This document shows positions 3,250-59,538 of a stretch of DNA of 64,000 bases, piece after piece. The stretch is from contig JADMKK010000008.1 in assembly GCA_015478895.1 (NCBI GenBank), positions 62,001 through 126,000 on the forward strand, in the 5' to 3' direction. Below the pieces are notes generated by a model that was not told the DNA's origin, did not search any database, and was given only the letters and a program-made list of their open reading frames with translations. Within the stretch, counting starts at the first letter, position 1. Each line of letters begins with the position of its first letter. The DNA is from Comamonas sp. (GTDB taxonomy: Bacteria > Pseudomonadota > Gammaproteobacteria > Burkholderiales > Burkholderiaceae_C). A program made the translations under genes and the position numbers.

Positions 3250-3282
3250 GCAACCAGCCCTTGCTGGACAAGGGCTGGTTGC
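3250..3282 (+). repeat. Class B hairpin repeat (copy B1), terminator-like
   Basis: A perfect 13-bp stem (3250-3262 with 3270-3282) around a 7-base loop starts 10 bases after the thiolase stop. The core AGCCCTT-loop-AAGGGCT is the core of the class B repeat, and the loop GCTGGAC nearly equals the loop of the copy at 35571 read on the other strand. A run of A just upstream would be a T-run on the minus strand; the plus strand lacks a good T-tract, so terminator activity for the thiolase gene is uncertain. Confidence 0.75.
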
Positions 3283-3314
3283 CTAAAAAGCTTCAAAAAC
3301 TGGAGGGCGATTCC

Positions 3315-3490
3315 ATGGCTGTGGTCTTGGTAATTGGTGCTTCACGCGGCATTGGGCGTGGCTTGGTACAAGCGCAAAGATCAGCGTGGAAACTTGCGTG
3401 CAAGGCATGCTGCAAACCGTGGGTAACTTGAAGCCGCAAGACGCGGGCCGCCTGCTGCGCTATGACGGGCTGCGTTGGGAAAGCTGGTAA
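3315..3490 (+). pseudogene. Remnant of a short-chain dehydrogenase/reductase gene
   Basis: Two pieces of an SDR of the CsgA-like group survive. From ATG at 3315 the frame reads MAVVLVIGASRGIGRGLVQ, the classical N-terminal Rossmann strand with its Gly-rich NAD(P) motif. After about 20 residues the reading shifts, and another frame, from about 3374 to TAA at 3490, reads ISVETCVQGMLQTVGNL followed by GRLLRYDGLRWESW. This resembles the usual SDR C-terminus (SV-x-GM ... G-L-x-W). The roughly 170 central residues with the Ser-Tyr-Lys site are missing, so an internal deletion with a frame change is the simplest reading. The fragment cannot be catalytic. A 12-base tandem duplication (AGCTGGTAATTC twice, 3482-3505) overlaps its end. 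Confidence 0.8.
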
Positions 3491-3531
3491 TTCAGCTGGT
3501 AATTCGAGCCGACAAAAACATCTAAATAAAT

Positions 3532-3607
3532 AGCTGCCTGCCCTTGTTAACAAAGTACTTCAAAGTGTTTTGCATATGAAAACAAGCAAACACAAGGGTA
3601 AGCAGCT
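3532..3607 (+). repeat. Class A nested hairpin repeat (copy A1)
   Basis: Outer arms AGCTGCCTGCCCTTGT (3532-3547) and ACAAGGGTAAGCAGCT (3592-3607) pair with one mismatch and enclose about 44 bases carrying a weaker inner pairing (CTTCA ... TGAAA). The inner right side, GAAAACAAGCAAACACAAGG, closely matches the same part of the copy at 47714. It lies just upstream of the acyl-CoA dehydrogenase gene, whose Shine-Dalgarno site (AGGAGA at 3623) is outside the repeat. Confidence 0.8.
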
Positions 3608-3635
3608 CACTTTTTAAAAATGCAGGAGACAAACC

Positions 3636-4766
3636 ATGTTGCTGAGTGAAGACCAAACCATGATCCGCGATGCCTTGCGCAGCTTTGTGCAGGAGCAAAT
3701 CACGCCGCATGCCGCGCGCTGGGACAAAGAGCACCACTTTCCCAAAGATGTACACCAAGGCTTGGCCGCGCTGGGTTGCTATGGCATTTGCGTGCCCGAG
3801 GAATACGGCGGCGCGGCGCTGGACTATGTGAGTCTGGCGCTGGTGCTGGAAGAAATTGCCGCTGGCGACGGCGGCACCAGCACCGTGATCAGCGTGACCA
3901 ATTGCCCGGTCAACGCCATCCTTATGCGTTACGGCAGCGACGCGCAAAAGCAGCAGTGGCTCACACCGCTGGCCAAGGGAGAAATGCTGGGCGCTTTCTG
4001 TTTGACGGAGCCGCATGTGGGCAGCGATGCCTCCGCGCTGCGCACCACGGCCACCAAGGACGGCAATGATTACGTCATCAACGGAGTCAAGCAGTTCATC
4101 ACCAGCGGCAAGAACGGTGATGTGGCCATCGTCATTGCGGTGACCGACAAGGCAGCAGGCAAAAAGGGCATGAGCGCGTTTCTGGTGCCCACCTCCAACC
4201 CCGGTTATATCGTTGCGCGTCTGGAAGAGAAATTAGGCCAGCACAGCAGCGATACGGCACAGATCAACCTGGAAAACTGCCGCATTCCTGCCGCCAACCT
4301 GATTGGCGCGGAAGGCGAGGGCTACAAGATTGCGCTGAGCGCGCTGGAAGGTGGGCGCATCGGCATTGCCGCCCAAAGCGTGGGCATGGCACGTGCAGCG
4401 TTTGAATGCGCGCTGCAATACAGCAAAGAGCGTGAGAGTTTTGGTCAGCCTATCTTCCATCACCAGGCCGTGGGCTTCAGACTGGCCGATTGCGCTACGC
4501 AGATTGAGGCGGCACGCCAGCTGATCTGGCATGCCGCCAGCTTGCGCGATGCGGGCTTGCCTTGCCTGAAAGAAGCCGCCATGGCCAAGCTGTTTGCCAG
4601 CGAAATGGCCGAGCGCGTATGCAGCGCTGCCATCCAGACGCTGGGTGGCTACGGTGTTGTCAATGACTTCCCCGTGGAGCGCATTTACCGCGACGTGCGT
4701 GTGTGCCAGATTTATGAAGGCACGAGCGACGTGCAAAAAATCATCATCCAGCGGGCGTTGGCGTAA
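3636..4766 (+). CDS. Acyl-CoA dehydrogenase
   Basis: A 376-residue FAD flavoenzyme that oxidises an acyl-CoA to the 2-enoyl-CoA and passes electrons to ETF. The family landmarks are in order: an all-alpha N-terminus, the flavin/substrate segment AFCLTEPHVGSDASAL (about 125-140), ITSGKNGDV, the middle beta domain, and the C-terminal YEGTSDVQ with the catalytic Glu at 361 in the position used by short-chain and butyryl-CoA dehydrogenases. The length is typical. ATG follows CAGGAGACAAACC. Chain-length specificity cannot be decided from sequence alone. The upstream neighbours are a thiolase and a decayed SDR, so this may once have been a complete oxidation cassette. Confidence 0.92.
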   Translation: MLLSEDQTMIRDALRSFVQEQITPHAARWDKEHHFPKDVHQGLAALGCYGICVPEEYGGAALDYVSLALVLEEIAAGDGGTSTVISVTNCPVNAILMRYGSDAQKQQWLTPLAKGEMLGAFCLTEPHVGSDASALRTTATKDGNDYVINGVKQFITSGKNGDVAIVIAVTDKAAGKKGMSAFLVPTSNPGYIVARLEEKLGQHSSDTAQINLENCRIPAANLIGAEGEGYKIALSALEGGRIGIAAQSVGMARAAFECALQYSKERESFGQPIFHHQAVGFRLADCATQIEAARQLIWHAASLRDAGLPCLKEAAMAKLFASEMAERVCSAAIQTLGGYGVVNDFPVERIYRDVRVCQIYEGTSDVQKIIIQRALA

Positions 4767-4784
4767 GGGCGAGCAAGGTCTGGG

Positions 4785-5324
4785 TCAGACGTCGTCAAGG
4801 TCAATCGTGAAACCTTGGTACTGGCGTGGCACGGGGCGTGCCAGTACCAGCTGCAACTCGGCCATGCGCTGTTTCACAAACAGTGCCGGTACGGCGAAAG
4901 CATGGGCCAATTCCTCCACATCACGCGCTTGCATGGTGTGAATGGCGTACTGCAAGGCTGGCTCAGGCATGAGCAGGCGCAACGCAAAGTCGTTGGCCTC
5001 GGTCATGTGGCGCTGGGTGAAATCCAGTCGAAAGTCCTGGCTGATGTGAATCGCCTGCGCCATTCCCGGGCGCAGATGGTGCAGCGCCACGTGCGCCAGT
5101 GCGTGGGCCACCACATAGCGCTGGTGGACATGGGGCAATGACTGGCTCAAACGAATCTGGGCTTGGTTGCTGGCACTGATCCTCAGTAGCGCGCAAGCTT
5201 CTAAGCTGGGCTCCAACAGCAGGCGCACGCCCATTTTTTTCACGATGTGCGCCACATTCACGGGAACGGTTTGGTCCCAGTGCAGTTTGAGAATACCTTC
5301 TGCCAAAAGTGCCATACGCGGCAT
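4785..5324 (-). CDS. ImmA/IrrE-like (DUF955) protein lacking the catalytic Glu
   Basis: About 179 residues from ATG at 5324 (alternative ATG at 5315; neither has a strong ribosome site). The fold signature of ImmA/IrrE metallopeptidases is present: an N-terminal segment with VKKMGVRLL, a helix [10 protein letters not shown], and [12 protein letters not shown] about 30 residues later. The zinc motif HExxH reads H74-A-L-A-H78: both histidines remain but the general-base Glu is Ala (GCA codon), while Glu109 of the EAN motif is kept. Peptidase activity is therefore doubtful. No cognate XRE regulator gene sits beside it. It is convergent with the acyl-CoA dehydrogenase gene and divergent from msrP. 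Confidence 0.7.
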
Positions 5325-5408
5325 TATCACCGTGCAGGCGGTGCAATATGTGAGCATAAAGGGGTGTCGCGAGCATTCCCGCACCCTGTGCTGCAACGGA
5401 GACCTTGT

Positions 5409-6371
5409 ATGAACATCAAAGCCAGTGAAATCACTTCCCCTGAAAGCTATGCCGGGCGCAGGCAATGGCTGCAGTGGGCCGCCAGCGGCGTTGCGGGTGC
5501 CGCTCTGGCAACCTGGGCGCAACGCGATGCGCTGGCTAACGCCCCCTCTTCAGCGTGGCCAGCATTGAACCACAGCACGTCCAAGGTGGCTGGGGCCATC
5601 AGCATTGAGGCAGTCACACCCGCCAAGCATGTGACGAGCTACAACAACTTCTACGAGTTTGGTATGGGCAAAGATGATCCGGAGCGTTATGCGCAGCAAT
5701 TGCCTGTTGATCCGTGGTCGGTGGAGGTGGAAGGACTGGTGCACAAGCCAGGTCGATGGGCTTTGGAAAATTTGCTCAAACTCAGCCCGATGGAAGAGCG
5801 CATCTACCGGTTGCGCTGTGTAGAGGGTTGGAGCATGGTGATTCCGTGGGTTGGCTACTCGCTGGCAGAGCTGCTGCGCCGGGTCGAACCAATGGGTAGC
5901 GCCAAATTTGTTGAGTTCGTGACCGTGGCCGATGTGCAGCACATGCGCGGACTGAAGAGCGGGGTGTTGAGTTGGCCTTACACCGAGGGCTTGCGATTGG
6001 ATGAAGCCATGCACCCGCTGACCTTGCTGGCGTTTGGCATGTATGGGCACACCTTGCCCAAGCAAAACGGCGCGCCACTGCGCTTGGTGGTGCCGTGGAA
6101 ATATGGTTTCAAAAGTGCCAAGAGCATTGTCAAAATTCGCCTGGTCGAAGCCATGCCGCAAAGCGCGTGGATGAAGTCAGCGCCGCATGAATATGGCTTT
6201 TACTCCAATGTGAACCCGGATGTGCCGCACCGCCGCTGGAGCCAAGCCACGGAGCGGCGCATTGGTGAGGGCGGTTTGCTGGCACCGAAGCGCAAAACAG
6301 AGCGCTTCAATGGATATGCCGAGCAAGTCGGGCAGCTTTATGCAGGCATGGATCTGCAGCGCAATTTCTGA
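5409..6371 (+). CDS. msrP: Protein-methionine-sulfoxide reductase catalytic subunit MsrP
   Basis: This 320-residue periplasmic molybdoenzyme (YedY) repairs oxidised methionines in envelope proteins. A twin-arginine signal, [18 protein letters not shown] (residues 16-33), directs export through Tat, whose tatABC genes are at 53.9-55.6 kb. The molybdenum-binding Cys is Cys137 in [10 protein letters not shown]. Also present are the oxidoreductase-fold segments [10 protein letters not shown] and ATERRIG near the end. I start it at ATG 5409 (upstream GGAGACCTTGT) because the signal peptide begins there; upstream in-frame starts would add an unrelated arm. Its stop overlaps the msrQ start (TGATG), showing translational coupling. 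Confidence 0.95.
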
Positions 6372-7012
6372 TGGGGTCAGAACGCCACCGTAGGAGTTGG
6401 CCGCAGGCACTCTTGAAACCATTGATCTGGCTGCTGTGTTTGGCGCCAGCGGTGTATTTGCTGCTTCAAATTTTGAGCGATGCACTGGGCGCCAACCCCG
6501 TGGAGGCGCTGATCCGCGCCACCGGGGATTGGACACTGCGCGGCCTGTGCCTAGTGCTGGCGCTGACCCCCATGCAGGTAAGTCTAGGCTGGTCGGTGCT
6601 GGCAAGAGTGCGGCGTCTACTGGGGCTCTTCACCTTTTTTTATGCAGGGCTGCACGTGCTGACCTACGCGTGGCTAGAAATGGCGTGGTCGTGGCGAGAG
6701 ATTGGGGAAGATGTGCTGCAACGCTGGTTTATTGTGGTCGGCGTTGGCGCTTTTTTCGTTTTGTTGTCACTGGCTATCAGTTCACACCATGCCGTCCTGC
6801 GTAGCTTAGGCGGCAAAAACTGGAAGCGCTTACACCAGAGTGTGCATGTGGCCGCCTGGCTGGCGCTGCTGCATTTCTTTTGGATGCGCAGCGGGAAGAG
6901 TGATTTTGCGGAGGTGGCCGTGTATGCCGCCATCATTGCCTTCCTGCAGGCATGGCGCGTGGTACGCCGTATCCGGAATAACCGCCGAAAAACCAGGGCG
7001 CAGAACGCATAG
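6371..7012 (+). CDS. msrQ: Heme-binding membrane subunit MsrQ
   Basis: This 213-residue inner-membrane b-type heme protein (YedZ, ferric-reductase-like fold) feeds electrons from the respiratory chain to MsrP. Several hydrophobic helices are visible, including LLCLAPAVYLLLQIL near the N-terminus, LFTFFYAGLHVLTY and SVHVAAWLALLHFFWM. Histidines in GLHVL, SSHHAV and QSVHV are candidate heme ligands. The ATG overlaps the msrP stop by one base. The gene is followed 47 bases later by the convergent end of lptM, with no obvious terminator between them. Confidence 0.93.
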   Translation: MGSERHRRSWPQALLKPLIWLLCLAPAVYLLLQILSDALGANPVEALIRATGDWTLRGLCLVLALTPMQVSLGWSVLARVRRLLGLFTFFYAGLHVLTYAWLEMAWSWREIGEDVLQRWFIVVGVGAFFVLLSLAISSHHAVLRSLGGKNWKRLHQSVHVAAWLALLHFFWMRSGKSDFAEVAVYAAIIAFLQAWRVVRRIRNNRRKTRAQNA

Positions 7013-7059
7013 CAAGGCCTTAAAGCGTCCCGGCGCTATCTGGATCGCAACGGCGTGAT

Positions 7060-7278
7060 TTAACGCTGTGGAGCAGGCGCTGCGGGCGCTATTGGAGCTA
7101 TGGGAGCACTGCCTCGCGAAGGGAGTGCAGGAAAAACACTATCCGGTAACGAAGCCCGGTCTTGGGCCGCACGTTCTGTCGGCAAATAGAGATCACCGCG
7201 CTGGCCGCAAGCCCCCAGCGCTGCCGTACAAACGGCAAGGGCAAAGCACCTGACTAGAATTTGGGAAGCATTCAACAT
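7060..7278 (-). CDS. lptM: Small lipoprotein LptM (YifL-like)
   Basis: A 72-residue lipoprotein: a short hydrophobic signal peptide ends in the lipobox LGAC with the acylated Cys24, followed at once by GQRGDLYLP, the LptM hallmark (usually GQKGPLYLP). LptM helps LptD mature in the outer-membrane lipopolysaccharide translocon. The rest is a low-complexity Ala/Pro tail ([14 protein letters not shown]). In many proteobacteria lptM is followed by lysA; here it runs instead towards the convergent msrQ gene and lysA is absent. Its start codon lies next to or overlaps the divergent cyaY start at a CATG sequence. No clear Shine-Dalgarno site is visible. Confidence 0.85.
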
Positions 7279-7291
7279 GAGTGGGATTGTA

Positions 7292-7630
7292 ATGACCGAC
7301 CTGGAATATTTAGATAAGGCTGAACAATTGCTATTGGCAGTGGAGCAAGCCTGTGACCGCCTCAATGATGAAACCGATGCTGATATCGACGCGCAGCGTG
7401 TGGGCGGCATGGTGACTTTGGTGTTCGCCAACCGTTCACAAATTGTGGTTAACCAGCAAAGGCCTCTGCATGAGATCTGGATGGCGGCCAAGGCCGGTGG
7501 CTTTCACTATAAATTTGATGGTGAAAAGTGGCTAGACACCAAGGGAAGCGGCGAGTTCTTTGCAAACTTGACAAGTTACGCGAGCCAACAAGCTGGCATC
7601 GCACTGACTTTCACTGCCGCCATGCAATAA
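7292..7630 (+). CDS. cyaY: Iron-sulfur cluster assembly protein CyaY (frataxin)
   Basis: Bacterial frataxin, an iron-binding regulator of Isc cluster assembly. The acidic first helix ([20 protein letters not shown], rich in Asp/Glu) and the sheet with [31 protein letters not shown] and [11 protein letters not shown] are diagnostic. I favour ATG 7292 (112 residues) because family members begin with MTDLEYL and GTGGGATTGTA precedes it. The in-frame ATG at 7277 would overlap the divergent lptM start codon. Either way the two divergent genes have almost no space between them, so promoter elements must lie inside coding sequence. A shared terminator follows. Confidence 0.93.
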
Positions 7631-7667
7631 ACGCTTGCCGTGCTATCCGGCTTAGGTCGGTAAAGAT

Positions 7668-7703
7668 AAAAAAAGCCCGGGGCGTAAGCCACGGGCTTTT
7701 TTC
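7668..7703. terminator. Bidirectional Rho-independent terminator (cyaY/ponA)
   Basis: AAAAAAAGCCCG (7668-7679) pairs with CGGGCTTTTTT (7692-7702), with a small inner GGC/GCC stem around GTAA. An A-run on one side and a T-run on the other let it serve both convergent genes; it abuts the ponA stop codon. Confidence 0.9.
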
Positions 7704-17216: not shown

Positions 17217-17262
17217 CATAGCTATAAGACCTTGTGTGTAAAGGGCTTGAGGCTGTTTTAGC
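17217..17262 (+). repeat. Class B hairpin repeat, degenerate (copy B2)
   Basis: CATAGCTATAAGACCTTG ... AAGGGCTTGAGGCTGTTTTA follows the class B layout (CATAGCT, CCTTG, loop, AAGGGC, GAGGC, T-rich tail), but the pairing of the arms is partly lost. It lies between aroB and the dGTPase gene. Confidence 0.5.
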
Positions 17263-20162: not shown

Positions 20163-20244
20163 TATAGCTACTGGCCGTTGATTTATCACGATTTTGCATA
20201 GTTTTGATGCTGAAATCTAATAAAGCCAATGGCTGGCTGCTATA
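20163..20244 (+). repeat. Class A nested hairpin repeat (copy A2)
   Basis: Outer arms TATAGCTACTGGCCGTTG (20163-20180) and CAATGGCTGGCTGCTATA (20227-20244) pair with a few mismatches; the inner part holds GCAT ... ATGC. It lies between the convergent methyltransferase and Bug-receptor genes. Confidence 0.65.
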
Positions 20245-21325: not shown

Positions 21326-21433
21326 CTGTGTCTCCTTAGGATTCGATGTGTGAAATGGGGGGGACGTGGTGACCGCACATACGTGGATACGTGGCGCGGT
21401 CATCCGAGAGAAAAAGCCAGCGATGAAGGGCGC

Positions 21434-22645
21434 TTAGACCTTTTCCAGAATCACGGCAATGCCTTGGCCCACGCCGATGCACATGGTGCACAGCGCGTAG
21501 CGCCCGCCCAGGGTGTGCAGCTGGTTGACCGCAGTGGTGGCCAGTCGGGCACCGGAAGCACCCAGTGGGTGACCCAACGCAATCGCGCCGCCCCATTGGT
21601 TGACGCGGGCGTCGTCGTCGGCAATACCCAGGTCACGCAGCACGGCCAGGCCTTGCGCGGCAAAGGCTTCGTTGAGCTCAATCACGTCCATGTCGGCCAG
21701 TGTCAAACCGGTTTGTGCCAACACTTTGCGCACGGCAGGCGCAGGGCCAAAGCCCATGATGCGCGGTGCCACACCTGCAGTGGCCATGCCCACCACGCGA
21801 GCGCGGGGCACCAGGTTGTATTGCGCAGCCGCTTCGGCGTTGGCCAGCAACAGGGCGCAGGCACCGTCGTTCACGCCCGAGGCATTGCCTGCGGTCACGG
21901 AGCCATCAGCGCGCACCACGCCTTTGAGCTTGGCCAGCGCTTCAAGGGTAGTGGCACGAGGGTGTTCGTCTTGGCTGACGATGATGGCGTCGCCCTTTTT
22001 CTGGGCAATGCTCACGTTCACGATTTCCTTGGCCAGATAACCGGCAGCAATCGCGGCAGCGGCTTTTTGCTGTGAAGCCAGCGCCATGCGGTCTTGCGCG
22101 GCGCGCTCAATCTTGAAATCGTCGGCCACGTTCTCTGCGGTCTCGGGCATGGAATCCACGCCGTACTGCGCCTTCATCAGCTTGTTGATAAAGCGCCAGC
22201 CGATGGTGGTGTCGTACACGGCGTTGTTGCGGCTGAAGGCGGTTTCGGCCTTGGGCATCACAAACGGTGCGCGGCTCATGGATTCCACACCACCGGCAAT
22301 CATCAAGCGTGCTTCACCCGACTTGATGGCGCGGGCCGCAGAACCCACAGCGTCCAGACCCGAACCGCACAGACGATTGAGCGTGCCACCGGGCACTTCC
22401 AGGGGCAGGCCAGCCAGCAGGGCCGACATGCGGGCCACATTGCGGTTGTCTTCACCGGCCTGGTTGGCGCAGCCGTACAGCACATCATCCACAGCCTTCC
22501 AGTCGACCTGGGGGTTGCGTTCCATCAATGCCTTGATGGGCAATGCGCCCAAATCGTCGGTGCGCACGCTGGATAGGGCGCCACCGTAACGGCCAAAGGG
22601 CGTGCGGATGGCGTCGCAAATGAAGGCTTCGGGTGCTGTGCTCAT
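21434..22645 (-). CDS. pcaF: 3-oxoadipyl-CoA thiolase PcaF
   Basis: A 403-residue thiolase cleaving 3-oxoadipyl-CoA to acetyl-CoA and succinyl-CoA, the last step of the beta-ketoadipate pathway for protocatechuate/catechol. The catalytic residues are Cys93 in NRLCGSGLDA, His359 in ALGHPLGASG and Cys389 in CTMCIGVGQG. The N-terminus AFICDAIRTPFGRYGGAL and PAVRKVLAQTGL are typical of PcaF/PaaJ-type enzymes. The ribosome site GGAGACAC precedes ATG. It lies downstream of pcaIJ, which supports the assignment over PaaJ. A class B hairpin repeat sits between pcaJ and pcaF. Confidence 0.92.
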   Translation of the reverse strand: MSTAPEAFICDAIRTPFGRYGGALSSVRTDDLGALPIKALMERNPQVDWKAVDDVLYGCANQAGEDNRNVARMSALLAGLPLEVPGGTLNRLCGSGLDAVGSAARAIKSGEARLMIAGGVESMSRAPFVMPKAETAFSRNNAVYDTTIGWRFINKLMKAQYGVDSMPETAENVADDFKIERAAQDRMALASQQKAAAAIAAGYLAKEIVNVSIAQKKGDAIIVSQDEHPRATTLEALAKLKGVVRADGSVTAGNASGVNDGACALLLANAEAAAQYNLVPRARVVGMATAGVAPRIMGFGPAPAVRKVLAQTGLTLADMDVIELNEAFAAQGLAVLRDLGIADDDARVNQWGGAIALGHPLGASGARLATTAVNQLHTLGGRYALCTMCIGVGQGIAVILEKV

Positions 22646-22696: not shown

Positions 22697-22739
22697 GAGA
22701 GCTGCTTGCCCTTGTGGGATAAGGGCAAAGTGGCAATTT
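22697..22739. repeat. Class B hairpin repeat (copy B3)
   Basis: AGAGCTGCTTGCCCTTG, loop, AAGGGCAAAGTGGCAATTT; the core TTGCCCTT/AAGGGCAA pairs perfectly (22706-22713, 22721-22728). It lies between pcaJ and pcaF inside the minus-strand operon, so it should be transcribed. Confidence 0.75.
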
Positions 22740-25087: not shown

Positions 25088-25112
25088 ACGTCCAGCGCGC
25101 CAATAATTGCCC

Positions 25113-25805
25113 ATGGCCCGTTTACCTCGTCTTAGTTTGCCCGGTCAGCCTCATTACGTGGTGCAGCGTGGCAACAACCTGCAGCCCATCTTTATGGATG
25201 TGCAGGATTACGCCAGCATGAAAGCCTTGCTGCGCGAGATGGGACGGCGCTTTGGTGTGGAGTTGCACGCCTTCATTTTGCTGCCCAATCAACTCCACTT
25301 GCTGGTCACGCCCGAAGCTGCAGACAGCCTGCCGCAGTTCATGCAGTCGGTCGGGCGAACTTATGTACGTACTTTCAATAATCGCCATGCTCGCACGGGC
25401 ACGCTGTGGGAAGGGCGCTACCGCGCCACCGTGCTGGAACCCCAGGCCTGGATGCTGCCTGCCATGGTGGTGCTGGAGAGCCAGGCGGTAGCGCAAGGGG
25501 TGGCGAGCCGCGCTGTGGACTATGTGTGGAGCAGCGCCCGCCACAACGCAGGCGCGCAGGTCGATGGCATGCTGCGCCTGCACCCGGCTTACTGGCGCTT
25601 GGGCGATACGCCCTTTGCCCGTGAAGCAGCCTATGCCTTGATGCTGGATCGCGGCGTGAGCGAAGAAGTCACTGAGGTCGTGTTGGGTGCCGCCATGAAA
25701 GGCTGGGTGCTGGGCGGCGAGAGCTTTGTGCAGAGCTTGCAGCAACGTACCGAGCGCCGTCTGGCACGACAAAGAGCAGGGCGGCCAGTCACGACCAAGG
25801 CCTAG
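25113..25805 (+). CDS. REP-associated tyrosine transposase-like (RAYT, Y1_Tnp) protein with altered HUH motif
   Basis: About 230 residues from ATG 25113. The N-terminus MARLPRLSLPGQPHYVVQRG is that of IS200-like/RAYT proteins. In catalytic members an HUH motif (usually N-H-x-H-L-L) holds the metal; here it reads NQLHLL, so the first His is Gln60 while His62 remains. The tyrosine helix is kept: QSVGRTYVRTFNNR with candidate nucleophile Tyr84, then RTGTLWEGRY. Downstream, the usual LNPVRA-like segment has diverged, although YVWSSARHN is still recognisable. The C-terminus is basic (RRLARQRAGRP). No terminal repeats flank it, and it is followed by its own terminator, then gltB. It may be a domesticated or inactive member. 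Confidence 0.85.
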   Translation: MARLPRLSLPGQPHYVVQRGNNLQPIFMDVQDYASMKALLREMGRRFGVELHAFILLPNQLHLLVTPEAADSLPQFMQSVGRTYVRTFNNRHARTGTLWEGRYRATVLEPQAWMLPAMVVLESQAVAQGVASRAVDYVWSSARHNAGAQVDGMLRLHPAYWRLGDTPFAREAAYALMLDRGVSEEVTEVVLGAAMKGWVLGGESFVQSLQQRTERRLARQRAGRPVTTKA

Positions 25806-30852: not shown

Positions 30853-32328
30853 ATGGGAAAGACCACCGGCTTCATGGAGTACGACCGCATCGAAGAGGGC
30901 TATCTGCCCGTTGCGGAACGTGTGAAGAACTACCAGGAATTCGTCATTGCATTGACGCCCGAGCAAGCCAAGATCCAGGGCGCGCGCTGCATGGACTGCG
31001 GCACGCCGTTTTGCAACAACGGCTGCCCGGTCAACAACATCATTCCGGATTTCAACGATCTGGTGTACCGCGGCGACTGGGCCAATGCCATCCAGGTGCT
31101 GCACAGCACCAACAACTTCCCCGAGTTCACCGGCCGCATCTGCCCCGCGCCGTGCGAAGCGGCTTGCGTGGCCAATCTCAATGGCGACGCCATCGGCATC
31201 AAGTCGATCGAGCACGCCATCATCGACCGCGCCTGGGACGAGGGCTGGGTCAAGCCCCAACTGCCCAAGACCTTGACTGGCAAGAAGGTGGCCGTGGTCG
31301 GCGCCGGCCCGGCGGGCTTGGCTGCGGCCCAGCAACTGGTGCGTGCGGGCCATGACGTGACCTTGTTTGAAAAGAACGACCAAGTCGGCGGCCTGCTGCG
31401 CTACGGCATTCCCGACTTCAAGCTCAACAAGTCCAACATCGACCGCCGCGTGGAACAACTGGTGGCCGAAGGCCTGAAGATCCGCACCGGCGTGCTGGTG
31501 GCGGGCAAGGACGGTCTGGGCAAGGACAGCAAGGTGACCAACTGGGCCACCGAAACCATCGCCCCCGAAACCCTGATGGCCGAATTTGACGCCGTGCTGC
31601 TGAGCGGCGGCGCCGAGCAGTCGCGCGACCTGCCCGTGCCCGGCCGCGAGCTCAAGGGCGTGCACTTTGCCATGGAGTTCCTGCCCCAGCAAAACAAGGT
31701 GACGCGCGACGGCAAGTTCAAGGGACAGATTCGCGCCGATGGCAAGCACGTCGTCGTCATTGGCGGCGGCGACACCGGCTCTGACTGCGTAGGCACTTCC
31801 AACCGCCATGGTGCAGTCAAGGTCACACAGTTTGAGCTGATGCCCATGCCGCCAGAAAAAGAAGACAAACCGATGGTGTGGCCTTACTGGCCGCTGAAGC
31901 TGCGCACTTCGTCCAGCCACCAGGAAGGCTGCGAGCGCGAGTTTGCGATTGCCACCAAGGAATTTATCGGCGAGAAGGGCCAACTGACCGCGGTGAAGAC
32001 CGTGCGTCTGGAGTGGCAAGGCGGCAAGATGACCGAAGTGCCCGGCTCCGAGCAGATCATCAAGGCCGATCTGGCCTTCCTGGCGATGGGTTTTGTCTCG
32101 CCCGTGCAGAGCGTGCTCGATGCCTTTGGTGTCGAAAAAGACCAGCGCGGCAACGTTAAGGCCACGACCGACTTCACCGGTGGCTACGCCACCAATGTGC
32201 CCAAGCTGTTTGCAGCGGGCGACGCGCGCCGTGGCCAAAGTTTGGTGGTGTGGGCCATCCGTGAAGGTCGCCAGGCCGCGCGTGCGGTGGACGAGTTCCT
32301 GATGGGCGCCAGCGCACTGCCGCGTTAA
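30853..32328 (+). CDS. gltD: Glutamate synthase small subunit GltD
   Basis: A 491-residue NADPH-oxidising subunit that passes electrons through FAD and Fe-S centres to GltB. N-terminal ferredoxin-like cysteines occur in [15 protein letters not shown] and [18 protein letters not shown]. The FAD-binding [13 protein letters not shown] is near residue 150 and the NADPH-binding GGGDTGSDC near 305; [17 protein letters not shown] closes the FAD site. ATG 30853 (AAGGAAACCACATC) matches the family N-terminus [12 protein letters not shown]; upstream in-frame codons are unlikely. It follows gltB by 90 bases and ends before a strong terminator. Confidence 0.97.
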
Positions 32329-32356
32329 GTTGAAAACTGGAGTGGCTTCAACGAGC

Positions 32357-32381
32357 AGGGCGCCTTCGGGTGCCCTTTTTT
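32357..32381 (+). terminator. Rho-independent terminator after gltBD
   Basis: AGGGCGCC/GGTGCCCT (32357-32364, 32369-32376) closed by a TTCG tetraloop, followed by TTTTT. Confidence 0.92.
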
Positions 32382-32413
32382 ATATTCATATTTAAATTCA
32401 TATTTAAAAAAGG

Positions 32414-32489
32414 AGCTACTTGCCTTTGTGAAACAGGCGTTTCAGATAGAAAAGTATCTGAAATTGTTGATTAACCAAGGCAAGCAGCT
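32414..32489. repeat. Class A nested hairpin repeat (copy A3)
   Basis: Outer arms AGCTACTTGCCTTTG (32414-32428) and CAAGGCAAGCAGCT (32476-32489) with a perfect 9-bp inner hairpin TTTCAGATA/TATCTGAAA (32440-32448, 32455-32463). It lies between the gltD terminator and the convergent DUF3293 gene. A direct repeat TTCATATTTAAA occurs just upstream. Confidence 0.85.
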
Positions 32490-35530: not shown

Positions 35531-35570
35531 AAAAGCAGCCGGCTCGGCTGAGTTCTTACATATGAAATAG

Positions 35571-35603
35571 GCTTCTAGCCCTTGTCCAGTAAGGGCTAGA
35601 AGC
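35571..35603 (-). repeat. Class B hairpin repeat (copy B4), inverted orientation
   Basis: A perfect 13-bp stem GCTTCTAGCCCTT/AAGGGCTAGAAGC (35571-35583, 35591-35603) with a 7-base loop. Read on the minus strand it gives ATAGCTTCTAGCCCTT ... AAGGGCTAGAAGCCTATTTC, the class B consensus. It may also terminate the ABC transporter transcript (T-rich TATATTTTTAT follows). Confidence 0.85.
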
Positions 35604-35625
35604 TATATTTTTATATTTTTGAGCT

Positions 35626-41675: not shown

Positions 41676-41719
41676 CATAGCTTCTAGCCGTTGATAGATA
41701 AGGGCTAGAGGCCTATTTC
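41676..41719 (+). repeat. Class B hairpin repeat (copy B5)
   Basis: CATAGCTTCTAGCCGTTG, loop ATAGAT, AAGGGCTAGAGGCCTATTTC; the arms pair with single mismatches. It lies between ibaG and murA, 31 bases before the murA ATG. Confidence 0.85.
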
Positions 41720-45156: not shown

Positions 45157-45438
45157 ATGAAGAACGTCACCATTACCGTCGAAGACAGCGTGCTGGAGTG
45201 GGCGCGCATCGAGGCGGCGCGCCGGGGCAGCAGTGTCTCGCGCATGCTGGGTGACTTTATGGCCGAGATGCAGCGCCGCGAGGACACCTACGAGCGTGCT
45301 TACCTCGCCTGGCGCACGGACGAGCGCACCTGGCAAGCCACCCCGGCTGCCACCAAGAGCAATAAAAAAGTAGCGCGTAGCCCAAGTGGAACAAGGGCTG
45401 GAGGCCAAAAAGGCTCTAAGTCTGGGAGTGCAGCATGA
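45157..45438 (+). CDS. Ribbon-helix-helix antitoxin (VapB-like)
   Basis: A 93-residue protein. MKNVTITVEDSVLEWARIEAARRGSSVSRML is a ribbon-helix-helix DNA-binding domain (about 1-40). A middle helix with EMQRREDTYERAYLAW (about 44-59) probably holds the toxin-wrapping part. The tail is basic and low-complexity (SNKKVARSPSGTRAGGQK), which is longer than usual. It overlaps the PIN gene by 4 bases (ATGA), the normal antitoxin-first order. It has its own palindrome upstream and sits between hisD and hisC. Confidence 0.82.
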   Translation: MKNVTITVEDSVLEWARIEAARRGSSVSRMLGDFMAEMQRREDTYERAYLAWRTDERTWQATPAATKSNKKVARSPSGTRAGGQKGSKSGSAA

Positions 45439-47706: not shown

Positions 47707-47713
47707 TCCAATA

Positions 47714-47796
47714 AGAGAGCGCAAAGCCGTTGCAGGCATTCAACTTGCAAATGTTTTGGTAGCGAAAGCAAGCAAATACAAAGGCACTCTGCTATG
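47714..47796 (+). repeat. Class A hairpin repeat, diverged (copy A4), overlapping the hisH start
   Basis: AGAGAGCGCAAAGCCGTTG ... CAAATACAAAGGCACTCTGC is a class A copy. Its right half, GAAAGCAAGCAAATACAAAG, aligns with GAAAACAAGCAAACACAAGG of the copy at 3532. Arm pairing is imperfect. Its AAAGG box is the only visible Shine-Dalgarno site for hisH, and its right end runs into that ATG. Confidence 0.6.
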
Positions 47797-51012: not shown

Positions 51013-51092
51013 GGAGCAGCTTGCCTGCATGAATACTCGGTTTCAGTGTGATAGAGCACGCAAAGCTAGTAATTTCTAGGGCATGCTGCTCC
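51013..51092 (+). repeat. Class A hairpin repeat (copy A5) between hisF and hisI
   Basis: Outer arms GGAGCAGCTTGCCT (51013-51026) and AGGGCATGCTGCTCC (51078-51092) pair with a small mismatch; an A-run precedes and a T-rich CTTATTTT follows. The inner part is more diverged than in other copies. It is inside the his operon. Confidence 0.75.
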
Positions 51093-53791: not shown

Positions 53792-53894
53792 GCACAGTGC
53801 TTGGCTTGCGTGGTTGTGACAGACATAAGGCCATAGACGGTCTGATGCGCTGGCAGCACGTCTAAAATGACCTGTATTCGTTAGGAGAAATCTC

Positions 53895-54131: not shown

Positions 54132-54171
54132 AGCATGCGCATGGCAGCTCGCACGGCAAAGGGCTTGATGC

Positions 54172-54678: not shown

Positions 54679-54789
54679 AGCGAAGCTTCCTAGCGTTTCC
54701 AGCTCCAGCACAGGCTGCCTCAGTGGTGGTGTGTGCTGGCGCTTTCTTATTGATTAGCAGGGCCGGTTGGCCCGGTTCTTTTTTCGACC

Positions 54790-55578
54790 ATGTCCAACAA
54801 ACCCACATCACAAGACGAGCTGGCCGGCAGTGAGCAGCCCTTTGTGCAGCACCTGATGGAGCTGCGCGACCGACTGCTTTATTGCATCTACGGCATTGCT
54901 GTGGCGGTGGCCTTGCTGGCTTTTTGGCCCGGCCCGAATGGGCTGATTGACTTTATTGCCCAGCCCATCAAGGCGCACATGCCGCCGGATGCCAAATTGA
55001 TTGCCGTGGGCGTTTTCACCCCGTTTTTTGTACCGCTGAAGGTGCTGATGATGGTGGGCATCCTGGCGGTATTGCCCTGGATCATGTACCAGCTGTGGGC
55101 CTTTGTGGCTCCAGGACTGTACACCCATGAAAAGCGTTTTGCATTGCCGTTGATTACCTTTGGCAGCTTCCTGGCCTATACCGGCATTGCATTTGTGCAG
55201 TTTTTTGTGCTGGACAAGATGTTTGGCTTCATTCAAGGCTTTACGCCGGACAGTGTGGCCGCCACACCGGATATTGCCTCGTACGTAGAAGCGATTCTGT
55301 CGCTGTATCTGGCGTTTGGATTGGCGTTCCAGGTACCGATTGTGGTGATGCTGCTGGTGCGCATGGGCATGGTGGAGATTGCCAAGCTCAAGAGCTTTCG
55401 CGGCTATTTCGTCGTGCTGGCGTTTGTCGTTGCTGCGGTGGTCACGCCGCCTGATGTGATCTCACAACTGGCGCTGGCCATCCCGATGTGTATCTTGTAT
55501 GAGGTTGGTATCCTGGCCGCAGGATGGTTTGTCAAGAGTTCCAAAAAGCCGGAAGACACCGAGGCGGAACAAACCTAA
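54790..55578 (+). CDS. tatC: Sec-independent translocase protein TatC
   Basis: A 262-residue polytopic receptor for twin-arginine signals. FVQHLMELRDRLLYCIYGIA with the conserved Glu, FVAPGLYTHEKRF, and six hydrophobic helices are visible; the C-terminus is charged (SSKKPEDTEAEQT). The gap of 111 bases from tatB holds no gene. A strong bidirectional terminator follows. Confidence 0.96.
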   Translation: MSNKPTSQDELAGSEQPFVQHLMELRDRLLYCIYGIAVAVALLAFWPGPNGLIDFIAQPIKAHMPPDAKLIAVGVFTPFFVPLKVLMMVGILAVLPWIMYQLWAFVAPGLYTHEKRFALPLITFGSFLAYTGIAFVQFFVLDKMFGFIQGFTPDSVAATPDIASYVEAILSLYLAFGLAFQVPIVVMLLVRMGMVEIAKLKSFRGYFVVLAFVVAAVVTPPDVISQLALAIPMCILYEVGILAAGWFVKSSKKPEDTEAEQT

Positions 55579-55609
55579 AAGCAGCGATTGCGCGCAGTGC
55601 TTGTCCATC

Positions 55610-55649
55610 AAAAAACCCCGCCAGCTTTCGATAGCTGGCGGGGTTTTTT
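55610..55649. terminator. Bidirectional Rho-independent terminator after tatC
   Basis: AAAAAACCCCGCCAGCT/AGCTGGCGGGGTTTTTT (55610-55626, 55633-55649), a perfect 17-bp stem with a 6-base loop, serving tatC and possibly the convergent protease gene. Confidence 0.95.
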
Positions 55650-55681
55650 GTTGCCTGAACGGCGGAGCGCAGTATCAGAAA

Positions 55682-55762
55682 AGGAGCTGCTTGCCGTGTC
55701 AATTCAAGCACTTCAGCATGGTTTGAGTCTGAAATGCTTGTTCTGCCACGGCGGGCAGCTCT
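55682..55762. repeat. Class A nested hairpin repeat (copy A6)
   Basis: Outer arms AGGAGCTGCTTGCCGTG (55682-55698) and CACGGCGGGCAGCTCT (55747-55762); inner arms CAAGCACTTCAG (55705-55716) and CTGAAATGCTTG (55729-55740), the clearest nested pair of the family. It lies between the tatC terminator and the protease stop codon. Confidence 0.88.
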
Positions 55763-55788
55763 CTTTTTTGACGCTTAGATGCATTGCA

Positions 55789-56937
55789 TTAACGCTGGCG
55801 CATGCGCTGCGCCGTGGGGCGTGTGGCTGGGGTGATATCCAGCGTCAAGCTGTCTGCGCCGCGCTGCACCGTAAACACCGAAGCCGTGCCAGGCTGCAGC
55901 GCAGCCACAGCGGTCATCATCTCGGCCACGTTGCGCACCGACTGCTCGTCAATTTGCACAATCACGTCGCCAGGCAGCATGCCAGCCCGCGCGGCAGGGC
56001 CAGCCTGCAGCACGCCGGTGATGATGACGCCCTGGTTGGCTTTGACACCAAAGGTCTCCGCCAGCTCGGGCGAGAGTTCATTGGGCTCCACACCAATCCA
56101 GCCGCGGGTGACTTTGCCGTCTTTGACCAAACCATCCATCACGATCTTGGCGGTCGAGACGGGAATGGCAAAGCCAATGCCCATGCTGCCGCCCGAGCGC
56201 GAATAGATGGCGGTGTTGATGCCCAGCAGGTTGCCCTCCACATCCACCAGCGCGCCGCCGGAGTTGCCCGGGTTGATGGCGGCATCGGTCTGGATGAAGT
56301 TCTCAAACGTGTTGATGCCCAGCTCACTGCGGCCCAAGGCGCTGACAATGCCGCTGGTCACCGTCTGGCCCACGCCAAAGGGGTTGCCAATGGCCAGCAC
56401 GGTGTCGCCCACCACCGCATGGTCGGAATTGCCGATCACGATGACCGGCAGCTTGTCCAGCTCAATTTTGAGCACGGCCAAGTCGGTTTCGGGGTCGGTG
56501 CCAATGGTGCGGGCGCTGGCCTGGCGGCCATCGGCCAGGGTCACTTCAATTTGATCGGCACCTTCCACCACGTGGTTGTTGGTGAGGATGTAGCCGTCAG
56601 GGCTGACGATCACACCGCTTCCTAAGCCGCTTTGCTGCTGCGGGCCGAACTGGTCACCAAAGAAAAACTGGAACCACGGATCATTGCTGCGCGGGTGGCG
56701 CACTTCTTTGCTGGTGGTGATGCTGACCACCGCCGGCATCGCCTTTTGTGCTGCGGCAGCCAGGCTGCCCGGAGCAAATTCTGCGCGGGGTTCGGAGGGC
56801 GCTTCCAGCAAGGAAATGCCAGCGCGGCTGTACGTGGCACCGCGTTTGAGCCAGCTGGGCTGCAAAGTGGCGACGACGAAGTAAGCAGCCAGCAAGATGG
56901 TGACTGCTTGAGAAAACAAAAGCCAGTAGCGCTTCAT
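55789..56937 (-). CDS. Membrane-anchored trypsin-like serine protease with one PDZ domain (DegS-like)
   Basis: A 382-residue HtrA-family protease. Start ATG 56937 gives MKRYWLLFSQAVTILLAAYF, an uncleaved-looking signal anchor. The catalytic triad is His122 (LTNNHVV), Asp152 (TDLAVLKIE) and Ser226 (NPGNSGGAL). A single PDZ domain follows (about 275-375; GVIITGVLQAGPAARAGMLP). One PDZ and an anchor fit DegS/HhoB-like rather than DegP. In E. coli DegS cuts RseA; no rseA or rpoE gene is here, so the substrate is open. Minus strand, convergent with tatC. Confidence 0.9.
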   Translation of the reverse strand: MKRYWLLFSQAVTILLAAYFVVATLQPSWLKRGATYSRAGISLLEAPSEPRAEFAPGSLAAAAQKAMPAVVSITTSKEVRHPRSNDPWFQFFFGDQFGPQQQSGLGSGVIVSPDGYILTNNHVVEGADQIEVTLADGRQASARTIGTDPETDLAVLKIELDKLPVIVIGNSDHAVVGDTVLAIGNPFGVGQTVTSGIVSALGRSELGINTFENFIQTDAAINPGNSGGALVDVEGNLLGINTAIYSRSGGSMGIGFAIPVSTAKIVMDGLVKDGKVTRGWIGVEPNELSPELAETFGVKANQGVIITGVLQAGPAARAGMLPGDVIVQIDEQSVRNVAEMMTAVAALQPGTASVFTVQRGADSLTLDITPATRPTAQRMRQR

Positions 56938-57314
56938 AGAAAAAATGGGGTGGGTGCAAAAAAGGGCAACAGCCTCCAAGCGTACGCGCAAATTTATCCC
57001 CGCGCAGGTGAGGCTGCGGCCAAGCATCTTTAGTCCGCAGAAGGCATCGTGAAAGAAGATGGGTTTGGTTTATTTGAAGAAAACGCATCGCATTCGGCGA
57101 TGTTGGGCTAAACCCTATGAGTGCTAACCCTAGAATATTTCTTTGACTGCGCCACACTGTGTTCGCTCGTAGTTGCACACATCCGTGCTGCTAGGAAACC
57201 CTCAGGGTTGCATTACCGTGCTGCCTCGAAGAACAGTCCAGTCTAGCCCTGACGCACTTATCCGTTGCCACGGCGCTCGCGCTGTCTGACCTTTGTGATT
57301 GGAAAGACATCCCC
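56938..57314. promoter_or_regulatory. Divergent region between the protease and MFS genes
   Basis: These 377 bases hold no gene I can support. Three AACCCT boxes occur: CTAAACCCTATGAG (57109-57122), CTAACCCTAGAAT (57123-57135) and a palindrome AACCCT-C-AGGGTT (57197-57209). They may be sites for a regulator of the divergent transporter gene. No tRNA or convincing promoter boxes were recognised. Confidence 0.35.
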
Positions 57315-58643
57315 ATGAGTAAGCATCCGAATGCACAAGCCCACCAGGTGGCGGGCGGTGCACACCATCGTCCTTTGAACCGCGACGATTACAAGACGTT
57401 GAGCCTGTCTGCCCTGGGTGGCACGCTGGAGTTCTACGACTTCGTCGTTTTCGTCTTCTTTGCCAACGTGCTGGGCGCGTTGTTTTTCCCCTCTGACATG
57501 CCCGACTGGCTGCGTCAGCTGCAAACGCTGGGCATCTTCGCGGCCGGTTATCTGGCGCGCCCCATTGGCGGCATCATCATTGCGCACTACGGCGACAAGA
57601 TTGGCCGCAAGAAGATGTTCACGTTGTCGATCTTCTTGATGGCCGTGCCTACGCTGGTGATTGGCTTGCTGCCCACCTATGAAGCCATTGGCATTGCCGC
57701 ACCTTTGCTGCTGCTGCTGATGCGCGTGCTGCAAGGCGCAGCCATTGGTGGCGAGATGCCCGGCGCTTGGGTGTTTGTGGCGGAACACTCGCCCGCCAAG
57801 CACTATGGCTTTGCGATTGGCTCGCTGACCTCGGGTATCACCGGCGGCATTTTCCTGGGCTCGATCTTTGGCGTGTGGCTCAACAGCACCTACAGCCAGG
57901 CAGAAATTCATGACTGGGCATGGCGCATGCCGTTCATCGTGGGTGGGGTGTTTGGTCTGGTGTCGGTGTACCTGCGCAAGTTTTTGCAAGAAACCCCGCT
58001 GTTCCAAGACATGCAAAAGCGCAAGGCTGCCGATGTGGAATTGCCTTTGAAGACCATTCTGCGTGACCACAAGCAAGCCTGCTGGCTGGTGGCGCTGATG
58101 ACCTGGGTGCTGTCGACCGCCATCGTGGTGGTGGTGCTGTTCACCCCGGCATATTTACAAAAGGTGTTCCACATCCTGCCTGCTGATGCCATGAAGGCCA
58201 ACGCCGTGGCGACGGTGACGCTGACCATTGGTTGCGTGTTCTGGGGCTGGCTCAACGACCAGATCGGCACCAAGTGGACCATGGTGCTGGGCTGGGGTGG
58301 CATGACGGTTACAGCCTACCTGTTCTACCTGGGCTTGCCTGGGCAAGAAACGCTGATCGCACGCTATGCGCTGGTGGGCTTTTTTGTGGGTTCCATCTCG
58401 CTGCTGCCAATTGTGGGTGTGCGCGCTTTCCCGGTGGCGGTGCGTTTTACCGGTCTGTCCTTTGCCTACAACATGGCCTACGCAGTGTTCGGTGGCCTGA
58501 CCCCCATGCTGGTGTCGATGTGGCAGCAAGTGGACGTGATGGCCCCTGCTCATTACGTCGCGGCCATGGGCGTGCTGGGTGCGGCGATTGGTTTTTTCTG
58601 GCCGATGGCATCCAGGGGCTGGCAGCCCAAGGTGACGAAGTAA
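57315..58643 (+). CDS. MFS transporter, metabolite:proton symporter family
   Basis: A 442-residue membrane protein with about 12 helices. LSLSALGGTLEFYDFVVFVF at the first helix, the loop GDKIGRKKMF (the MFS DRxGRR-type motif between helices 2 and 3) and RVLQGAAIGGEMPGAWVFVAE are characteristic of the MHS family (ProP, ShiA, KgtP, PcaT types). The substrate is unknown, probably a carboxylate or compatible solute. GGAAAGACATCCCC precedes ATG. A terminator follows. Confidence 0.9.
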   Translation: MSKHPNAQAHQVAGGAHHRPLNRDDYKTLSLSALGGTLEFYDFVVFVFFANVLGALFFPSDMPDWLRQLQTLGIFAAGYLARPIGGIIIAHYGDKIGRKKMFTLSIFLMAVPTLVIGLLPTYEAIGIAAPLLLLLMRVLQGAAIGGEMPGAWVFVAEHSPAKHYGFAIGSLTSGITGGIFLGSIFGVWLNSTYSQAEIHDWAWRMPFIVGGVFGLVSVYLRKFLQETPLFQDMQKRKAADVELPLKTILRDHKQACWLVALMTWVLSTAIVVVVLFTPAYLQKVFHILPADAMKANAVATVTLTIGCVFWGWLNDQIGTKWTMVLGWGGMTVTAYLFYLGLPGQETLIARYALVGFFVGSISLLPIVGVRAFPVAVRFTGLSFAYNMAYAVFGGLTPMLVSMWQQVDVMAPAHYVAAMGVLGAAIGFFWPMASRGWQPKVTK

Positions 58644-58665
58644 TTCGTTCGCGGAGCAAAACCTG

Positions 58666-58693
58666 AAAAGGGTAGCTGCGGCTGCCCTTTTTT
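58666..58693 (+). terminator. Rho-independent terminator after the MFS gene
   Basis: AAAAGGGTAGC/GCTGCCCTTTT (58666-58676, 58681-58691) with loop TGCG and one G-T pair, then a T-run ending TTTTTT. Confidence 0.88.
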
Positions 58694-58740
58694 GTGCCCG
58701 CGTGCTTTGTGGATGTGTGGGGCTTGGCACAATCGGTCCC

Positions 58741-59490
58741 ATGATCCAGCGCCAAGACCTTCTTTCTCATTTCGACGCCTTGCTGCAGCCCGAGCGCTTC
58801 AAAGACTACGGCCCTAACGGTCTGCAAGTCGAAGGCAAAGCCGCAATTGGCCACATCGTCAGCGGCGTGACGGCCAGCCGCGCCTTGATTGAAGCGGCCA
58901 TTGCCGATAAGGCCGATGCCATCTTTGTGCACCACGGCCTGTTCTGGAAAGGCATGGATGGTCGGATCACTGGCTGGATGAAAGAGCGCATTCGCCTGCT
59001 GCTGGCGCACGATATCAACCTATTTGCCTACCACTTGCCGCTGGATGCGCACCCAGAACTGGGCAACAACGCCCAGTTGGGCACCCAGCTGGGCGTGCAG
59101 TGGGATACCACCTTTGGCGAGCAAGCACTGGGCATGATCGGTCACGCCAGCTTTGCGAATGCCGAGGCCTTGGCCGCCCATGTGCAGCAGGTGCTGGGCC
59201 GCAGCGTCACTTGTGTCAGTGGCGCTGAAGGTCAACCTATACGTCGTCTGGCATGGTGTACGGGCGGTGCGCAGGGCTTTTATGAAAGCGCTTTGGCCGC
59301 AGGTGCCGATGCCTTCATCACCGGAGAGATCTCTGAGCCCCAAGCCCACTTGGCGCGCGAAACCGGCACCACCTTTATTGCGGCCGGTCACCACGCCACT
59401 GAGCGTTATGGTGCGCCCGCAGTGGCCGCGCAAGTGGCACAGCAGCTGGGGCTGAGTCACCGCTTTATTGAAATCGATAACCCCGCTTAA
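58741..59490 (+). CDS. Nif3-like dinuclear metal center protein (YbgI family)
   Basis: A 249-residue protein of the Nif3/YbgI (GTP cyclohydrolase I type 2 homologue) family. The metal-binding histidines are in FVHHGLFWKG and AYHLPLDAHPELGNN, and near the C-terminus in AAGHHATERYG with its Glu; GADAFITGEIS is also conserved. The protein forms hexameric rings with a two-metal site; its cellular role is not settled. Start ATG 58741 matches the family N-terminus. pdxA lies 48 bases downstream with a hairpin repeat between. Confidence 0.93.
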   Translation: MIQRQDLLSHFDALLQPERFKDYGPNGLQVEGKAAIGHIVSGVTASRALIEAAIADKADAIFVHHGLFWKGMDGRITGWMKERIRLLLAHDINLFAYHLPLDAHPELGNNAQLGTQLGVQWDTTFGEQALGMIGHASFANAEALAAHVQQVLGRSVTCVSGAEGQPIRRLAWCTGGAQGFYESALAAGADAFITGEISEPQAHLARETGTTFIAAGHHATERYGAPAVAAQVAQQLGLSHRFIEIDNPA

Positions 59491-59494
59491 CTTT

Positions 59495-59538
59495 CATAGC
59501 TGTTAGCCCTTGGTGCAAAAGGGCTAGAGGCCAATTTC
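59495..59538 (+). repeat. Class B hairpin repeat (copy B6) directly before pdxA
   Basis: CATAGCTGTTAGCCCTTG, loop GTGCA, AAAGGGCTAGAGGCCAATTTC. Its right end touches the pdxA ATG, and its AGAGG lies 8 bases before that ATG as the apparent Shine-Dalgarno site. Confidence 0.88.

Follow-up and report, generated by a model that had tools for sequence, protein, structure and literature searches.

Palindromic elements of two fixed lengths near gene ends in Comamonas: a candidate recognition system with a changed core base pair

Extragenic palindromes of bacteria are usually explained as mobile elements or terminators, and the reason why they persist in genomes is an open question. Such palindromes occur in a stretch of 64,000 nucleotides from a Comamonas sp. 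genome (bases 62001-126000 of contig 8 of assembly GCA_015478895.1, which comprises 3,198,149 bases in 61 contigs), hereafter the window, in which an original prediction had recognized a two-class family of intergenic hairpin repeats (classes A and B) with at least twelve copies. According to the sequence comparisons reported here, there is roughly an even chance (a probability of about 0.5) that a putative sequence-specific factor reads both classes as DNA-level boundary sites near gene ends, that its specificity changed in the lineage of this genome, and that the factor itself was lost in a relative, G050.

Both classes consist of the same half-site, AGC-N5-GCC-N-T, in inverted pairs, which supports the view that the two classes share a common arm. 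Their lengths, measured from the outer AGC to the outer GCT, are narrower than had been proposed, being 76 bp for class A (instead of 75-90) and 35 bp for class B (instead of about 45). The search for inverted half-site pairs in intergenic DNA, within about 170 bases and with no more than one mismatch per half, retrieved 226 pairs, 62 of which have a length of 76 bp and 34 a length of 35 bp, any other length occurring at most five times; with no mismatch, the pairs were 54 (46 of 76 bp and four of 35 bp). In the control search for direct pairs, which retrieved 140 of them, no single length occurred more than six times. The two lengths differ by 41 bp, that is, about four turns of DNA. The AGC at the foot is invariant in the alignments used for training (A1 for class A and A2 for class B, see below). 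Moreover, class A, whose position profile was obtained from 62 of the 65 copies of a genome sample, keeps T28, T29, A48 and A49; its centre is T-rich, and A-rich and T-rich stretches flank it on the outside. Class B is asymmetric, with ATTT in its 3' flank.

The twelve copies of the window have the sequences that had been described, and all of them match a covariance model, R1 for class A or R2 for class B. Both models were trained on the source genome: for R1, two of 24 candidate places were removed by eye as false and 21 of the other 22 were used (alignment A1), and for R2, 31 of 77 candidate rows were used (alignment A2), many rows being the two strands of one place. Since five of the six class A and four of the six class B copies of the window were used in building the models, the independent evidence is represented by the genome-wide counts. 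All twelve copies lie between genes, as proposed, also according to the gene calls of this analysis, which were obtained with a script of our own. The presence of both orientations holds for class B in the window to the extent that the + strand scores best in five of the six copies and the - strand only in that at 35571. The copies are listed below with the expectation value (E) of the match; class A is given without strand, and the core is the base pair that in class A occupies positions 11 and 66.

3249..3283, + strand: class B, 35 bp (R2, E 4.8e-9)
3532..3607: class A, 76 bp, intergenic (R1 match 3522-3617, E 1.2e-15); G..C-core element at the orthologous site of the relative G052
17220..17254, + strand: class B (R2, E 9.2e-11)
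20166..20241: class A, 12 nt past a stop codon (R1, E 6e-13); orthologous site of G052 without element
22700..22734, + strand: class B (R2, E 2e-13); orthologous site occupied by a G..C-core element in both G052 and G051
32414..32489: class A, between convergent called genes (R1, E 1.8e-20); orthologous site also occupied in G052 and G010
35570..35604, - strand: class B, nearly symmetric (R2, E 1.1e-13 on the - strand and 4.8e-6 on the + strand)
41679..41713, + strand: class B (R2, E 8.7e-16)
45372..45406, + strand: class B, weak extra copy within the weakly scoring called gene 45157-45438 (R2, E 4e-5)
47718..47793: class A, immediately 5' of the start codon at 47794 (R1 match at 47708, E 5.1e-4, the weakest of the twelve); orthologous site also occupied in G052, G010, G051 and G044
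51015..51090: class A, between co-directional genes (R1, E 3.1e-14); orthologous G..C-core elements, e.g., in G052 and G051
55685..55760: class A, between convergent genes, in a gap that also holds an ordinary terminator-like hairpin (R1, E 3.5e-17)
59498..59532, + strand: class B (R2, E 3.2e-13)

A genome-wide search, as had been suggested, retrieved far more copies than control patterns. The class B pattern, with up to three mismatches, has 119 forward and 129 reverse occurrences (one and one for the reversed pattern), and the class A arm, with up to two mismatches, has 139 and 151 (zero and two), one palindromic place being able to score on both strands. In a sample of 713,672 bases (22% of the genome, window included), the model matches up to E 0.05, once merged, correspond to 65 class A and 56 class B places, which would extrapolate to about 290 and 250 per genome, respectively. 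A scan of 713,672 bases by conserved positions only retrieved 61 places of 76 bp, 60 of which are intergenic, and none in the reversed sequence. Within the window, no Rfam family was matched at the gathering score. As regards the arms of class B, they often carry CTAG, a tetranucleotide that is under-represented in the 713,672-base sample (808 occurrences vs. 1409 expected, both strands). The first 24 kb of the window are matched by 76 plasmid records, and the eight listed all align with the whole or a part of 21428-22633, which, when annotated, is a pcaF-type gene.

One core base pair, changed in nearly all copies, had been missed by the original prediction. In the sample of the source genome the core is C..G in 60 of 62 class A and in 54 of 55 class B copies, these tallies being restricted to copies with a length of 96 (A) or 60 (B). 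The comparison of 31 class A sites with their counterparts in relatives revealed G..C in the latter in all 31 cases and, in the source genome, C..G in 29 and G..G in two; similarly, G..C is found in 32 out of 32 class A copies with a length of 96, taken from 19 relatives. The same picture was obtained by searching for the two core patterns with one mismatch allowed, a mixed core being counted under both: the source genome has 41 matches to C..G and three to G..C, and the relatives G051, G052, G016, G066, G044 and G010 have 31, 21, 20, 18, 8 and 4 matches to G..C, respectively, and none to C..G. Among 250 genomes of the family, no other has more than 10 matches to the C..G pattern, and the 10 found in G300 are all mixed cores. 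When named genomes were scanned, 67 stretches were retrieved (50 with G..C, 16 with G..G and one with C..G), assigned to Acidovorax, Comamonas, Simplicispira, Giesbergeria, Extensimonas, Paenacidovorax and Rhodoferax, and to metagenome-assembled genomes (MAGs) named at higher ranks, one of which is labelled Gammaproteobacteria; two follow-up analyses of these loci covered 42 of the 67. A mixed G..G core is a mismatch in the stem and, therefore, speaks for each half being read separately. Beside the core, position 12 of class A is split (C in 27 and G in 25 of 62 copies). Restriction avoidance was considered as a cause of the core change and rejected, GCGC and AGCGCT being not avoided genome-wide (observed/expected 1.10 and 0.90, respectively).

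The syntenic stretches of five relatives were compared with the source genome, the long aligned blocks being mostly 70-86% identical (about 80% over 40-60 kb of the window). Regarding the genomes of the genus, whose match coordinates coincide with those of genomes reached through named loci, G052 is presumably C. kerstersii CCUG 15333, G046 C. composti DSM 21721, G047 C. denitrificans, and G024 a MAG of Comamonas. An element was recognized at the orthologous site if at least 13 of 16 (class A) or 12 of 14 (class B) conserved positions were present. According to this analysis, the orthologous site holds class A in 13 of 14 cases in G052, 11 of 12 in G010, three of three in both G051 and G044, and one of 10 in G050; the corresponding figures for class B are 9 of 13, 5 of 15, one of four, one of two and none of seven. 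The contrast between G052 and G010 taken together and G050 has p values of 5e-6 for class A and 0.03 for class B. Some of the G050 sites hold remnants with a G..C core, and the class A matches of the whole genome are eight in G050 vs. at least 79 in each of the source genome, G010, G051, G052 and G044. In the 24 class A pairs shared with G052 and G010, positions 1-3, 29, 67 and 74-76 are identical throughout, positions 10, 28, 48 and 49 are identical in 92-96% of cases, positions 9, 13, 30, 31, 50 and 68 in 71-88%, and the remaining ones in 21-67%, except for positions 11 (8%) and 66 (0%). This profile implies that much of class A has been replaced in place, its length and some individual bases being conserved. 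In G051, a class A copy lies inside a perfect palindrome of about 120 bp (locus L142, around 1501-1596), which may be an artefact since the assembly of this genome is fragmented.

As for the position relative to genes, the 65 class A places of the sample fall between convergent genes in 30 cases, between co-directional genes in 33 and between divergent genes in two, none being in a called gene; for the 56 class B places, the figures are 11, 36 and two, with six places in called genes and one at an edge. In comparison with intergenic bases, divergent gaps are avoided by both class A (p 5e-7) and class B (p 7e-5), and convergent gaps are preferred by class A (p 1e-8), the convergent share of class B being not unusual (p 0.24). 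The elements are placed at gene ends: 41 of the 72 convergent gaps of at least 60 nt hold one, and in co-directional gaps the distance from the stop codon to the element is mostly less than 60 nt. The T fraction past the stem is 0.56 for class A and 0.42 and 0.44 for class B, vs. a background of 0.25. At positions 55578-55684 and 32328-32400 of the window, terminator-like hairpins with T runs share a convergent gap with an adjacent class A copy.

The paired changes in the arms had been taken as a sign of selection on structure, and for class A this holds. The pairing test was carried out on 60 intergenic class A copies picked by conserved positions alone, which avoids the leaning towards pairing of the copies found with R1, and their 3' halves were shuffled 3000 times. 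The outer variable positions form 4.53 Watson-Crick pairs out of eight, vs. 3.82 (standard deviation, sd, 0.14) in the shuffles, the mid zone 6.15 out of 12 vs. 4.47 (sd 0.23), and the inner zone 3.63 out of seven vs. 2.89 (sd 0.15), with none of the 3000 shuffles as high in any of the three. The 30 orthologous copies of relatives show the same trend (0, 0 and 9 of 3000 shuffles as high for the outer, mid and inner zone, respectively), the inner zone being weaker in G052 alone (170 of 3000). The mean folding z is -4.95 for class A and -2.66 for class B.

These data have to be weighed first against the possibility that the elements are RNA hairpins of 3' ends, i.e., bidirectional intrinsic terminators or stabilisers of mRNA 3' ends, read by a sequence-specific RNA-binding protein or nuclease. 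Their closeness to stop codons, the occupancy of convergent gaps, the T-rich stretch past the stem, the low folding z and the covariation of class A would all be in keeping with it. Nevertheless, the flanks of co-directional elements are not directional: the T fraction downstream and that of the opposite strand upstream are 0.55 and 0.52 for class A (p 0.74, n 33) and 0.42 and 0.41 for class B (p 0.75), unlike those of 139 other hairpins of co-directional gaps (0.34 vs. 0.24, p 3e-5; 22 to 2 among 25 T-rich ones). This symmetry weakens a terminator role, although it is not decisive, as an A run pairing with a U run could also produce it. Moreover, in 16 of the 33 co-directional class A copies the next start codon is less than 60 nt away, and terminators require neither an exact length nor a fixed core base. 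On balance, we regard this explanation as unlikely, albeit the most serious of the competitors.

A second possibility is that the elements are uptake signals for natural transformation, and that a changed uptake receptor, together with recombination, was the driver of the in-place core change, a mechanism that has been proposed for the dialects of DNA uptake sequences (DUS). Both the change in place and the decay in a whole lineage would be expected from such a drive. Single arms with the core of the source genome occur in genes 17 times for class A (60 shuffles: mean 6.0, sd 4.0, maximum 18) and nine times for class B (mean 3.0, sd 1.9, maximum 7), and those with the other core 12 times (shuffles 9.3, sd 5.0) and four times (3.9, sd 2.5), respectively; the six class B elements in called genes may add to the excess, and 16 (A) and seven (B) single arms remain outside elements. 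Viral contigs, in turn, carry the B pattern in six stretches and the strict A pattern in none. However, the excess of single arms is small (a handful of occurrences over about 0.6 Mb of genes), and uptake needs no exact spacing. ComEC, the only competence gene compared, does not track the repeats either, being present in 52 of the 53 genomes of the genus, including 14 of the 15 that lack class A matches; G010, in which the ComEC match is split, keeps class A. We therefore judge uptake signalling to be quite improbable. In G010 (contig 15, 397546-405285), the ComEC domain matches are about 7 kb apart, as if interrupted.

The phylogenetic distribution of the elements bears on any candidate reader. 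Class A matches are present in 38 of the 53 genomes of the genus (at least 50 matches in 29, 1 to 40 in nine, none in 15), and class B matches in 23 of 41 genomes, including the source genome, and in none of 16 genomes belonging to other families of the order; out of 20 genomes picked for a class B match, 19 also have class A matches, from two to at least 79. These counts cover both strands and are not copy numbers, the largest ones being lower bounds; low counts outside the source genome may partly reflect divergence because the models were trained on that genome.

The original prediction had also proposed copying by a hairpin-recognising enzyme, which would make the elements mobile palindromes of the REP (repetitive extragenic palindrome) or REPIN type, spread by a RAYT (REP-associated tyrosine transposase). 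The occurrence of hundreds of extragenic palindromes and of a RAYT-like gene in the window is consistent with this idea. This gene (25107-25805, + strand, 232 aa), adjoining one for a PcaR/PcaU-family regulator, is the only match of the genome to Y1_Tnp (PF01797) at E 1e-3 or better; its product scores 28.6 bits with the Pfam model (cut-off 23) and 43.7 bits with the NCBIfam model REP_Tyr_transpos, below the cut-off of 80. By eye, it reads NQLHLL at the place of the HuH motif and has no tyrosine at the expected place (motifs given in part by PMC6006769); it has the appearance of a conserved form without catalytic function. Between 22749 and 32402 of the window there is no R1 or R2 match, hence none flanks the gene, and the nearest element is about 2.4 kb away. 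In the genus, PF01797 is matched in 47 of 53 genomes, mostly by a single-copy gene and in some cases by the IS200 type; neither the presence of the gene (53 genomes) nor its motifs (42 translated copies, examined by eye) follow the repeats. In particular, PF01797 is not matched at E 1e-3 in the element-rich G044, G005, G012 and G059 (the completeness of G005 and G059 being 85% and 87%), and six genomes with an intact-looking copy have zero or one class A match. The lost residues, the unflanked gene and the profile across the genus led us to reject copying by a RAYT, and, considering also that class A stays at orthologous sites in relatives, a mobile origin of this type appears very improbable.

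The maintenance of similar copies by gene conversion, with no trans-acting factor, would explain a new core common to nearly all copies, but is hardly credible, as most of the other positions vary both among copies and within orthologous pairs, the split at position 12 and the variability of the others would restrict the conversion tract to one or two bases, and the decay in G050 would be left unexplained.

Neither the Y1_Tnp gene nor ComEC follows the repeats, and therefore we infer a separate factor. In the explanation that we favour, classes A and B would be two fixed-length inverted arrangements of a half-site AGC-N5-GCS-N-T, read by a sequence-specific trans-acting factor. This would most likely act on DNA, recognizing a dyad-symmetric and hairpin-capable site near the 3' ends of genes, and the site may represent a boundary between transcription units (a road-block, a supercoil sink or both). 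Its target may be duplex DNA, a cruciform or RNA; the exact spacing and the symmetric A/T flanks favour DNA, and the pairing favours a folded form. The core change would reflect a changed specificity of the factor in the source lineage, with the sites following in place, and in G050 the factor was probably lost, leaving the sites to decay.

Several observations weigh against this explanation. The pairing of class A and the low folding energies fit an RNA hairpin equally well, about half of the mid-zone positions of class A are unpaired, and for class B selection on structure did not emerge from the test for compensatory changes (alignment A2: 81.6% of cells paired vs. 81.0%, with 112 of 500 shuffles as high). 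The core is not uniform, as two of the 62 class A copies of the source genome depart from C..G, one copy of this genome (C8:155158) is G..G, and the class B cores of relatives (n = 18) are 10 G..C, six G..G, one G..T and one C..G. Class B is also less persistent at orthologous sites than class A. The decay in G050 refers to 17 sites in a single 116-kb stretch and to a match count obtained with a model trained on another species. Finally, no reader was found among the genes compared across the genus, namely, those for Y1_Tnp and ComEC.

Among the open-licence papers searched, no listing names the repeat family, and a word search for Comamonadaceae and related terms gave no occurrence in PMC3733652 and PMC12306157. 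We tentatively suggest, with somewhat less assurance than for the explanation itself, that it represents a recognition system of Comamonadaceae not described in that literature, with several hundred sites per genome in two geometries 41 bp apart, whose reader would have switched specificity in this genome, the sites following in both halves of nearly every copy, and would have been lost in the sister lineage G050. If this is true, several hundred sites with the same base pair exchanged would document, in an unusual way, how an entire recognition system switched specificity. The three natural states (G..C core, changed core and decay) at the same sites of close relatives make any candidate factor testable against a sharp pattern.

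Some known families resemble these elements. The Bor repeats of Bordetella are likewise short palindromes near coding regions in a beta-proteobacterium; unlike classes A and B, they measure 26-30 bp and are said to resemble E. coli REP (PMC1590033; compared by description only). The beta-proteobacterial repeat element (BRE), of about 90 bp and usually intergenic, is reported in Comamonadaceae among others, and in Bordetella it has a mean of 69% GC and lies in tandem in varying numbers, with 1 to 29 copies per listed genome (according to a section of PMC3110155); nearly all class A matches have 31-50% GC, and the distinction from BRE relies on this description rather than on an alignment. The DUS of Neisseriaceae exist as dialects, often in inverted pairs at terminators (PMC3630211), and share with our elements the lineage-specific forms of one motif across the genome and the inverted pairs near gene ends; the elements described here differ from them in having an exact spacing and single arms with a slight enrichment at most, and in not being tracked by ComEC. 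With intrinsic terminators, the elements share a hairpin with a T-rich flank near the stop codon, and are set apart from them by flanks that are symmetric whatever the direction of transcription, by fixed lengths and core bases, and by the fact that about half of the co-directional class A copies lie less than 60 nt before a start codon. In E. coli, REPs are found near gene ends and are rare between divergent genes. The elements described here are similar to REP/BIME and REPIN in this respect and in being hundreds of extragenic palindromes; REPs carry a GTAG/GTGG or CGTC tag at the hairpin foot (a rule given in part by PMC3733652), and our elements an AGC. They further differ from REP and REPIN in their two exact lengths, in the stability of class A at orthologous places, in the change of one core pair, and in occurring with no intact RAYT detected.

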